Shown: positions 20,780 through 23,483 of the stretch, one piece after another | How positions within the stretch are numbered: position 1 is the first letter of the stretch | Layout of the letters: each line of letters begins with the position of its first letter | Assembly (NCBI GenBank): GCA_003220225.1 | Contig: QHRU01000073.1 | Span: 1 to 37,897, forward strand | Length of the DNA: 37,897 nucleotides | Direction of reading: 5' to 3' | From: Candidatus Rokuibacteriota bacterium | Lineage (GTDB): Bacteria > Methylomirabilota > Methylomirabilia > Rokubacteriales > CSP1-6 | Notes under the pieces: generated by a model | Databases searched by the model: none | Told to the model about the DNA's origin: nothing | The model's input: the letters and a program-made list of their open reading frames with translations, nothing else | Position numbers and translations under genes: made by a program

Positions 20780-21019
20780 TTGAGCGTTGACCGCGAGCCT
20801 AGCAGCACCAGCGTCGTCGACGTTCTCGACCGCGTACTCGACAAAGGCATCGTGATCGACGCCTGGGTCCGCGTGTCGCTGGTCGGAATCGAGCTCGTCA
20901 CCGTGGAAGCCCGCGTCGTCGTCGCCTCGATCAGCACGTACTTCTCGCATGCCGAAGCCATCGCTGAATTACCCCGCGCATCGACGGCAACGCGTGATCT
21001 GCTGTCCGCACAGGGCTGA
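20780..21019 (+). CDS. gvpA: gas vesicle structural protein, GvpA/GvpJ family (orphan)
   Basis: 79 residues from a TTG start, 12 bases after the preceding gene. The core [20 protein letters not shown], then [20 protein letters not shown] and [13 protein letters not shown], is the amphipathic helix-strand-strand-helix unit that polymerises into the gas-vesicle wall; length and the D-K-G-I-V-I-D-A-W-x-R-V-S-L-V-G-I-E motif are family-typical. No gvpF/L, gvpN, gvpK or gvpG gene is in the window, so this is an isolated copy. Isolated GvpA/J/M-like proteins may serve something other than buoyancy. Controlled with its upstream partner by a sigma-54-type promoter. Confidence 0.93.
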
Positions 21020-21103: not shown

Positions 21104-21336
21104 GTGGGTGAGCGTCAGCATGGTGGGCGCAAGACTGACGGCGGTTCGCCCGCCCACGGGAGGTCGTGGCAGCCGCCCAGCACGCTGCCGCCGCTCTACG
21201 CAGGCTGGATCGACGATCTGCTCGGCGGCCCGCTGCCCCACGAGTCCGAGGCGACGTGCGAGGACTGCGCGATGCGCCCGAGCGGCCCCGCCGCGGCCGG
21301 GGCTCTCGTCTTCGCGGCCGAGACGAAGTGCTGCAC
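21104..21336 (+). pseudogene. N-terminal fragment of a Cys-rich TKCCTY-motif protein
   Basis: GTG start with GGGGAGGG upstream. After a basic leader the frame reads LPPLYAGWIDDLLGGPLPHE, then SEATCEDCAM and FAAETKCCTYV. I know this as the start of a family of unknown function in which C-x-x-C is followed by T-K-C-C-T-Y-x-P-x-L-P-N-F-L-V-G and a further about 250 residues; the four Cys may hold a metal cluster. Here the frame leaves the family exactly after TKCCTYV and runs into the 3-prime end of the minus-strand parvulin-like gene. The joint lies at about 21335-21340. Confidence 0.7.
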
Positions 21337-22248
21337 CTACGTTAGCCGCTTGTTGCCTACGGCCAGGATCAGGTGGCCCTCCTTCAAGGCGAGCGGCCCG
21401 AGCACGTCGCCTGGCATCGCGCCGACCAGCGCCTCCCGCACGGCGGGCTCGACGTCTTCCAGCCACCATTCGATCGTCTCGGCGCGTAGTCTCGCCGCGG
21501 CCGCGACCTGTTCGATGGGGCGACCGTCCTCCCGCACGCAGAGCGTGACCTCGCGGGCCACTTCGACGTCGGGCGCCAGGACGGTCTGCACGGTGAAGCG
21601 CATCCAGTCCAGCTGCCGGGCGGCGATCAGTGCACGCAACGCCTCGGGAGGCGCGTTCCTCGCGGTGAACTCTCGCCATGCCGCCTCCAGCCGCGAGAGC
21701 ATCTGCACCCGCTCGCGGCGCGCCTGCGCAACGTCCTTCGGGGGCTCGGGCGTCAACGCCGTCGCGTCGCCGCCCTCGTCGCGCATGCGCGCATAGACGG
21801 CGGCCCGGGCGGCGAGGCGCTCGGCGAGGCTCGCCGCCATGCCACTGCAGACCGCCTCGCACGGCACGGCCTCCGCGACCTCGTCCTCGTCGAGCTCGTA
21901 CGCTGCGCGGATCTCGTCGAGATCGTTCGCCCAGCGCCGGAGCAGCAGCGAGCGCCGGATGAAGTCGAGCCACGCGTCGATCGTGACGCCGCGGCGCTCC
22001 AGCCACGCCTCGAGGTCGGAAGCGGCGACGAGATCGCGCGCATAGCGGAAGTCGCACGCCGCCGCGTCGACGTCGGCCTCGTCGAGCGCGTCGTCGTCGA
22101 CATCGTCGAGCCGCGCCAGGCAGGCCAAGCCGTCGCGCACCCGCTGCTCGAGAGTCGTCCAATCCCCCCACACGTGCCCGGCGATGACGACGTCTTCCCA
22201 GACGTACGCCATCCGGTCGACCGTGAAGATCACCTCGTCCGCTTGCAT
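21337..22248 (-). CDS. parvulin-related (PpiC/SurA-like) protein, probably missing its C-terminus
   Basis: 303 residues, no signal peptide. The N-terminal two thirds are acidic and helical (RVRDGLACLARLDDV, ACDFRYARDLVAAS, LEAWLERRGVTIDAWLDFIR, then DEDEVAEAVPCEAVCSG), like the chaperone half of SurA-type proteins. The last about 90 residues resemble a degenerate parvulin fold: RFTVQTVLAPDVEVAREVTL, CVREDGRPIEQVAA and AMPGDVLGPLALKEGHLILA. Relatives continue VxxKRxPSLDDPxVRxRAE..., but here the frame ends at VGNKRLT, where the TKCCTY gene is also cut. Such proteins occur beside peptide-export or peptide-maturation genes. The 46-residue peptide gene lies divergently 325 bases away. Confidence 0.65.
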   Translation of the reverse strand: MQADEVIFTVDRMAYVWEDVVIAGHVWGDWTTLEQRVRDGLACLARLDDVDDDALDEADVDAAACDFRYARDLVAASDLEAWLERRGVTIDAWLDFIRRSLLLRRWANDLDEIRAAYELDEDEVAEAVPCEAVCSGMAASLAERLAARAAVYARMRDEGGDATALTPEPPKDVAQARRERVQMLSRLEAAWREFTARNAPPEALRALIAARQLDWMRFTVQTVLAPDVEVAREVTLCVREDGRPIEQVAAAARLRAETIEWWLEDVEPAVREALVGAMPGDVLGPLALKEGHLILAVGNKRLT

Positions 22249-22500
22249 GGGGCCCTACTATCCATAGCTGCCCCTCACGATGCAAGCGCCGGGCGCTTCT
22301 CGAGCATTCCCGGTGCCACGCGAGAACGTGGGGATTTCGCACCAGGCATGCGGTGCGCCCGGCTCCGACGGTCGACTCAGCAGGCAGCTCTCCCTCCGCC
22401 GTCGGGCGGTTCGCCCGGGTCCGGCGCCGGCGTCCCTGCGCGTTGGCCGCGAAAATCAGGACAACCGTACATTTGTCAGGTTTTCGGCAGGCGACGAGGC

Positions 22501-22515
22501 TGGCAGGCGTCTTGC
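22501..22515 (+). promoter_or_regulatory. sigma-54-type -24/-12 promoter of the small peptide gene
   Basis: TGGCAGGCGTCTTGC has the invariant GG and GC at the correct 10-base interval and matches TGGCA-N6-TTGC. Transcription would begin near 22527, giving a leader of about 46 bases with a GGAGGG ribosome site before the ATG at 22573. Together with the downstream terminator this frames a one-gene transcript. Confidence 0.6.
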
Positions 22516-22572
22516 GAACCTCAGAGCGCACGGGAGCAACAAGCCAGAGAGGAACGAAAGATGGAGGGAGCC

Positions 22573-22713
22573 ATGGCCAACACGAAGTCGGCGGCATCGA
22601 AGCGGGACGGGCTCAAGGACCTGACGCCGAAGAACCCCAGGCAGGTGAAGGGGGGCAAGGTCCAGATGCAGGACTTTCATTTCGTCGCGCGGGCGACTCG
22701 CGCCACACCATAG
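22573..22713 (+). CDS. 46-residue peptide with Gly-Gly leader-like motif, candidate modified or exported peptide
   Basis: The start ATG is preceded by GGAGGGAGCC. The N-terminal 28 residues, MANTKSAASKRDGL then KDLTPKNPRQVKGG, are Lys-rich with a D-L-x-P-K-N-P-x-x-V-K-G-G motif, which resembles double-glycine leaders of peptides handled by peptidase-containing exporters. The remaining 18 residues are KVQMQDFHFVARATRATP, with no Cys. The Q-M-Q-D-F-H-F string is also reminiscent of a strand in Hcp-like type VI tube proteins, though the rest of that fold is absent. The gene sits between its own sigma-54-type promoter and a perfect terminator. The neighbour is a parvulin-like protein; no exporter is in the window. 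Confidence 0.7.
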   Translation: MANTKSAASKRDGLKDLTPKNPRQVKGGKVQMQDFHFVARATRATP

Positions 22714-22731
22714 CTTTGATTGGACGAGACC

Positions 22732-22770
22732 GGGGTCAGGAAGCCGCGCTTCCTGGCCCCTTTCGTTTTA
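22732..22770 (+). terminator. intrinsic terminator of the peptide gene
   Basis: GGGGTCAGGAAGC and GCTTCCTGGCCCC form a 13-pair stem (one G-U) around a three-base loop, followed by TTTCGTTTTA. It starts 18 bases after the peptide stop and ends before the mlaC start, separating the two transcripts. Confidence 0.9.
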
Positions 22771-22796: not shown

Positions 22797-23483
22797 ATGA
22801 CCTCGACCCGTTTCCTCATCCTCGCGCTCAGCATGGGAGTGACGCTGCTCATGGTCTCCGACGCGCTGGCCGGCCCGGCCACGGACCAGCTCCGTACGTC
22901 GGTCGACCTCGTGGTGAAAATCCTGTCGGATCCCGAGCTCAAGAAAGAGGCGAGGTCGCTGGAGCGTCGGCGGGCGATCCGCGCCGTGGCGAACCAGATC
23001 TTCGACTTCGGCGAGATCTCCCGGCGGAGCCTCGCGCAGCACTGGCAGGCGCGACCCCCCGCGGAGCGCGAAGAGTTCACGCGTCTCTTCGGCGACTTGC
23101 TCGAGCAGTCGTACATCTCGAAGATCGAGAATTACTCCGGCGAGAAGATCCAGTATCTCGGCGAGGCGGTGGACGGTGACCGCGCCGTGGTCCGGACCCT
23201 GATCGTGACGAAACAGGGCACGGCGATCCCGGTCGACTATCGCATGTTCCTGCAGGGCGAGCGCTGGCGGGCGTATGACGTCACCCTGGAGGGCGTCAGC
23301 CTCGTCGCCAACTACCGCGCGCAGTTCAACGCGATCATCCAGCGCTCCGGCTACCCGGACCTCGTCGCGAAGCTGAAGACGAGGTACGACGAGCGTCCCG
23401 GGCCGCGCGAGACCGGCCCCCGCGTCGAGACCGGGGCGGCGGTGACCGCGCCCGCGCCGGCGCCGCCGCGGCAGTCGCCCTAG
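22797..23483 (+). CDS. mlaC: MlaC/Ttg2D-type phospholipid-binding periplasmic protein
   Basis: 228 residues. Signal peptide MTSTRFLILALSMGVTLL to about residue 23 (DALAGP). The mature part has the MlaC order: IRAVANQIFDFGEISRRSLA, QHWQARPPAEREEFTRLFGD, LLEQSYISKIENYSGEKIQY, VDYRMFLQGERWRAYDVTLE and GVSLVANYRAQFNAIIQRSG. MlaC shuttles phospholipid between the outer membrane and the MlaFEDB complex. The C-terminus ends with a Pro/Ala-rich tail absent from E. coli MlaC. No mlaA, B, D, E or F lies nearby, so it is a detached family member; hopanoid-linked relatives (HpnM) are an alternative label. A terminator upstream separates it from the peptide gene. Confidence 0.9.
   Translation: MTSTRFLILALSMGVTLLMVSDALAGPATDQLRTSVDLVVKILSDPELKKEARSLERRRAIRAVANQIFDFGEISRRSLAQHWQARPPAEREEFTRLFGDLLEQSYISKIENYSGEKIQYLGEAVDGDRAVVRTLIVTKQGTAIPVDYRMFLQGERWRAYDVTLEGVSLVANYRAQFNAIIQRSGYPDLVAKLKTRYDERPGPRETGPRVETGAAVTAPAPAPPRQSP

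Follow-up and report, generated by a model that had tools for sequence, protein, structure and literature searches.

What is made from a 46-residue peptide gene that stands on its own behind a sigma-54-type promoter, and where does the short stretch behind its Gly-Gly leader come from? The gene lies in the window (the whole 37,897-nucleotide stretch of DNA analysed here), which is contig C137 of a 6.03-Mb genome that is 97% complete, is divided into 167 contigs and was apparently assembled from a metagenome. Its relatives and its gene content suggest that it comes from a soil-type bacterium of the Rokubacteriales (Methylomirabilota). The sigma-54-type box, the GGAGGG site, the 46-codon gene and the 13-pair terminator described in the earlier note were all present (Table 1). 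Translation from the ATG at 22573 gives the 46-aa product MANTKSAASKRDGLKDLTPKNPRQVKGG followed by KVQMQDFHFVARATRATP, and an alternative upstream ATG at 22561 would make the peptide 50 aa long. The entire 46-mer had no match in Pfam and NCBIfam or in PDB, and Rfam and tRNA scans were likewise without a match. Window ORFs on the opposite strand that overlap the peptide gene were unsupported and were rejected.

Table 1. Coordinates of the peptide gene, its signals and its divergent neighbour in the window.
Feature	Position	Strand	Remark
303-aa protein, distantly TIGR04500-like (PpiC-related peptide maturation), divergent	21337..22248	-	
Another sigma-54-type box, TGGCACCGGGAATGC, oriented towards the divergent PpiC-like gene	22304..22318	-	sole other TGGCA-N7-TGC in the window
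Inverted repeat CGGGCGGTTCGCCCG, proposed enhancer-binding protein (activator) site	22403..22417		midway between the two boxes
Sigma-54-type -24/-12 box TGGCAGGCGTCTTGC	22501..22515	+	upstream of the peptide gene; same box type at the paralogues
Ribosome-binding site GGAGGG	22563..22568	+	
46-codon peptide gene, stop included	22573..22713	+	paralogues on C49, C28 and C133
Leader part MANTKSAASKRDGLKDLTPKNPRQVKGG	22573..22656	+	K-[DS]-L...V-[KV]-G-G kept in the paralogues
Tail KVQMQDFHFVARATRATP, copy of one Hcp strand	22657..22710	+	Hcp model positions 50-67
Intrinsic-terminator-like hairpin, 13 pairs	22732..22760, T-rich tail to about 22770	+	

A family of leader peptides within one genome

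A genome-wide search with the window peptide retrieved a paralogue on contig C49 (MDKKSRSQRNPAVKDLTPRNPTGVKGG followed by APAPKLYETACKGTHLPEVTLELW), a search of the genome with the Pfam model T6SS_HCP retrieved another on C28 (MAKNNKAGKKAKDLPIKSLAADQAKQVVGG followed by TARKAGGGQQEYLVMKMNDIIITGVTPS), and a fourth member on C133 (MDKKSGNGERTVKDLPARETQDVKGG followed by RDAATGLPTGKRQHAPV) was recognized on reading all 67 sigma-54-type boxes of the genome. The four stand-alone peptides have a common leader type and a sigma-54 box, and their tails are numbered 1 to 4 in the order C137, C49, C28 and C133. The last three peptides scored E-values from 2.5e-26 to 1.6e-19 in a profile search, all three being part of the query profile. 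The leader pattern had a 7-residue spacing in all members except C28, whose leader deviates by a VVGG ending and a longer spacing. The earlier view of the locus as a stand-alone leader peptide gene with a sigma-54-type promoter was thus borne out by paralogues in the same genome that carry the GG motif (of the K-G-G type, with VVGG as the one variant) and boxes of their own, with the leader kept and the cores different, and by an encoded RpoN (E = 4e-60).

Between C137 and C49 the leader core differed in 8 of 14 codons, five of them silently (dN 0.22, dS 1.0, calculated from 14 codons only). The ribosome-binding site, start, stop and promoter box were intact in all four peptide genes, and no convincing terminator was detected at the C49, C28 and C133 loci. 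The same leader occurs with a frameshift on C154 and as a remnant on C97.

The family appears private to the source genome, as none of 387 others had a convincing member in the profile search (388 genomes in all), and the leader pattern and profile gave convincing members in the source genome only among 95 genomes of the phylum. The window peptide yielded no convincing member in a single 8-mer scan across 84,980 species, and three of the peptides yielded no relative in scans of viral contigs, short peptides being easily missed by such scans. Matches of the 46-mer in phages and plasmids (tblastn) were chance matches only, and chance reading frames accounted for the weak matches that the first search had given in G094 and in relatives (L003-L005).

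Hcp segments in the tails

Hcp is the protein that builds the tube of the T6SS, a bacterial injection weapon. When tails 1, 2 and 3 were joined in order they matched T6SS_HCP at positions 46-110 (E = 8.2e-16) as well as solved Hcp structures (down to 4e-10). T6SS_HCP was also the top-ranked Pfam family for tail 2 (E = 0.038) and for tail 3 (E = 0.019) when each was searched singly, and the C49 tail matched the solved structure 7fcf, which was also matched by the joined tails together with structures named Hcp. On an HMM built from eight Hcps for the placement of the tails, tails 1-3 occupied positions 50-67, 66-84 and 85-111, with no gap and hardly any overlap, and they are encoded on three separate contigs. 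Tail 3 matched annotated T6SS Hcp genes in tblastn. In genomes of Acidobacteria and Thermoleophilaceae the string KVQMQDFHFV forms a strand of Hcp; since these Hcps were chosen for holding the string, they do not test tail 1 independently. Measured against a single Hcp chosen by tail 3 (L148), the score of tail 1 was reached by 8 out of 4000 random protein stretches. The derivation of tails 1-3 from Hcp is shown by these sequence comparisons. Of the earlier description of the tail, the 18 residues behind the GG motif stood and the undescribed class did not, since the tail is an Hcp fragment and the sister genes hold adjoining fragments.

For tail 4 an Hcp origin is suggestive. Its sole tblastn match in 72,556 plasmid records (7.3 Gb) was an annotated Hcp (11 of 16 residues, E = 3), and it had no match to the Hcp HMM built from another Hcp type; the annotated Hcp as sole match weakly indicates that tail 4 probably comes from a different Hcp type. 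None of the tails reaches the full-length Hcp fold (about 130 model positions), all being fragments of 17-28 aa.

The only full Hcp match of the T6SS_HCP search in the genome was a protein encoded on C1 (77700-78155, minus strand; L006), which is Hcp-like over its full length and whose N-terminus, by inspection, resembles a Sec-type signal. The host seems to be without a canonical cytoplasmic Hcp, and given that its sole full Hcp carries a Sec-type signal, it probably lacks a canonical T6SS of its own, as judged from Hcp matches only. In other genomes the strand GKVQMQDFHFV was observed embedded in mosaic-looking ORFs, in a Gemmataceae (L111 1015-1830) and a Kapaibacterium (L115 4146-4745) genome, with subtilase-, RTX- or FG-GAP-like pieces recognized by eye.

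Promoter boxes, a proposed activator site and the divergent neighbour

The box CTGGCA-N7-TGC occurred at 67 sites in the 6.03-Mb genome, fewer than for the reversed control (163), and each of the four peptide genes had one located 36-80 bp upstream of the start codon; the boxes of C49, C28 and C133 retain TGC and are without TTGC. The chance of a box in a given 100-bp upstream stretch was 5.6e-4 (about 6e-4 per locus), and C133 was left out of this test since it had been found through its box. In the 37.9-kb window 0.85 sigma-54-type boxes were expected and two were found, and the box alone is within chance. Both boxes of the window fall in a single 250-bp gap that extends from the start of the 303-aa neighbour to the peptide's box. 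This shared gap, the boxes at paralogues that were found by sequence, and an inverted repeat at a fixed 98-99 nt together put the window box beyond chance.

The inverted repeat is 98.5 nt from one window box and 99.5 nt from the other. A similar inverted repeat was present at the C49 and C133 peptide genes, 98.0 and 98.5 nt from the box, and these two are not independent because their upstream DNA is 76% shared. Among 79 boxes examined no other had an inverted repeat at that distance, and none was present at 98 nt at the C28 locus. The inverted repeat is likely to be a shared activator site of the peptide loci and the PpiC-like gene, and the peptide and the PpiC-like protein are likely induced jointly via one enhancer-binding protein. 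On C3 (L012-L015), closely similar boxes that contain CTGGCACGA (CTGGCACGANNTCTGC) are clustered before apparently secreted proteins, perhaps as another sigma-54 regulon.

The 303-aa protein matched TIGR04500 with an E-value of 7e-5 and 22 bits, which is far below the curated cut-off of 180 bits. It also resembled the C-terminal part of a 613-aa TfuA encoded on C142 (SW score 69 versus a shuffled mean of 41.5, sd 6.2; 1 of 2000 shuffles equal), and this part of TfuA in turn matched TIGR04500 (E = 2.9e-9). The structure of the 303-aa protein predicted from the single sequence was too poor for a structure search (mean pLDDT 38) and was set aside. On C142 (L107 1133-4391, minus strand) the leader peptide MAKKKWSKKVKIKDLPIKKGSAVKGGALRRASAQ is located directly before YcaO (E = 1.7e-78) and TfuA (3.6e-47), and the YcaO-TfuA operon behind the same leader type is a RiPP setting. 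This is the only member of the leader family beside YcaO-TfuA, the window peptide is beside the PpiC-like gene, and among the genes checked no maturation gene adjoins C28, C49 or C133.

Collinearity with the congener G002 starts at 22756 and runs onward, and neither the peptide gene nor the PpiC-like gene had a DNA match at the corresponding place of G002. Downstream, a MlaC-like gene (22797-23483, plus strand) has many diverged copies in the source genome and relatives. On the other side of the locus, the product of 20780-21019 (plus strand) is a gas vesicle protein (PF00741, E = 5.8e-17), and some of the DNA of this gene recurs elsewhere in the genome. A Cys-rich ORF at 21104-21349 (plus strand; ATCEDCAM...ETKCCTYV) is represented by its N-terminal part and is seemingly cut off at the end of the PpiC-like gene; the break is perhaps an insertion boundary.

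Possible roles of the peptides and comparison with known systems

Sequence comparisons establish the leader-peptide family and its promoter boxes, the derivation of three of the tails from Hcp, and the constant distance at which the proposed activator site lies. As an explanation we tentatively favour that the peptides are sigma-54-induced precursors of the RiPP type with Hcp-derived cores that may act as Hcp mimics. The locus would then be a divergent two-gene unit switched by sigma-54, in which a precursor peptide and a PpiC/TIGR04500-like maturation protein are served by one activator site between them. The four sigma-54 members would present different short Hcp segments behind a [KV]-G-G leader. 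As in RiPPs, this leader would be recognized and cut off in trans, and the segments might be modified by enzymes acting in trans. Once the activator senses a trigger, for example a T6SS attack by neighbours, the freed mimics could act by binding or capping either Hcp itself or some other partner of the same surface. The narrower proposal that the inducible leader peptides release contiguous Hcp strand and hairpin segments, which would serve as decoys by binding or capping the tube subunits of the T6SS, is rather improbable; if true, the decoys would constitute a peptide-based anti-T6SS system that copies a part of the weapon itself.

That the leader genes picked up pieces of Hcp through recombination and are now transcribed without any selected function is somewhat unlikely. 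The occurrence in a single genome, the frameshifted copy on C154, the remnant on C97 and the Hcp strands within mosaic ORFs of Gemmataceae and Kapaibacterium genomes are all compatible with such debris, whereas the intact signals of the four genes (ribosome-binding site, start, stop and promoter box), the spacing of the proposed activator site, fixed in three loci, and the conserved leader amino acids (most codon changes from C137 to C49 being synonymous) argue against it, as does the fact that the tails tile Hcp and are not random fragments. We also consider it unlikely that the peptides are RiPPs without mimicry, in which Hcp segments are mere raw material for a modified product (e.g. one that the YcaO-TfuA pair thioamidates in trans) with a signalling or antibiotic use unrelated to T6SS. 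An arbitrary core would leave unexplained why all four sigma-54 members hold Hcp-like pieces (the fourth weaker), three of them contiguous, and no modification enzyme was identified adjoining the four genes, even though the same leader type directly before YcaO and TfuA at C142, the similarity of the PpiC-like neighbour to the TfuA C-terminus and the association of TIGR04500 proteins with graspetide clusters (PMC13097080, PMC8939145) all point in that direction.

The model of the earlier note, in which a C39-containing ABC exporter cleaves and exports a classical double-glycine peptide, would account for the leader ending in GG and for the basic N-terminus. Given that no C39 peptidase match was obtained in the 97%-complete genome, this mode of cutting and export is unsupported, and with no exporter identified beside the peptide genes we regard it as highly improbable. 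An assembly artefact that joined leaders to Hcp reads is the sort of error that 167 contigs of apparently metagenomic origin and the lack of members among 387 other genomes might suggest, but it would have to account for four independent junctions with a stop codon of its own closing each tail, for consistent promoter boxes and for a gene next to the window locus that is 88% identical to its counterpart in the congener, and it is extremely improbable.

RiPP-type leaders carry small natural-product cores. Having neighbouring segments of an unrelated structural protein as cores, all controlled by a single sigma-54 switch, would put such leaders to a new use, and the family is a directly testable candidate for natural interference with T6SS that gene finders would probably overlook. 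Searches of the literature for Hcp in connection with GG or KGG leaders turned up nothing relevant, and no earlier description of leader-plus-Hcp-fragment peptides was found.

Compared with Hcp (PF05638), tails 1-3 are segments of 18-28 residues collinear with model positions 46-110, but the peptides hold fragments only, each behind a leader and on a contig of its own; the N- and C-terminal parts of Hcp are lacking, and a single tail is unlikely to form the Hcp ring alone. With GG-leader and RiPP precursors the peptides share a short basic leader ending in GG, a leader type that also precedes a YcaO-TfuA operon, and, for the window peptide, an adjacent putative PpiC-like maturation gene; they differ in that the core is a segment of a structural protein, there is no C39 exporter and the precursors mostly stand alone. 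TIGR04500 is known from rosaritide-type graspetide clusters (PMC13097080), and although the scores are far under the family cut-off and no ATP-grasp gene was identified among the checked genes near the peptide, both the window neighbour and the C-terminus of the C142 TfuA match parts of this model. Thioamidated RiPP clusters contain YcaO-TfuA (PMC8120280); the window locus differs from them in being without a YcaO and a TfuA gene, whereas C142 resembles them in having a leader peptide, YcaO and TfuA in a row.
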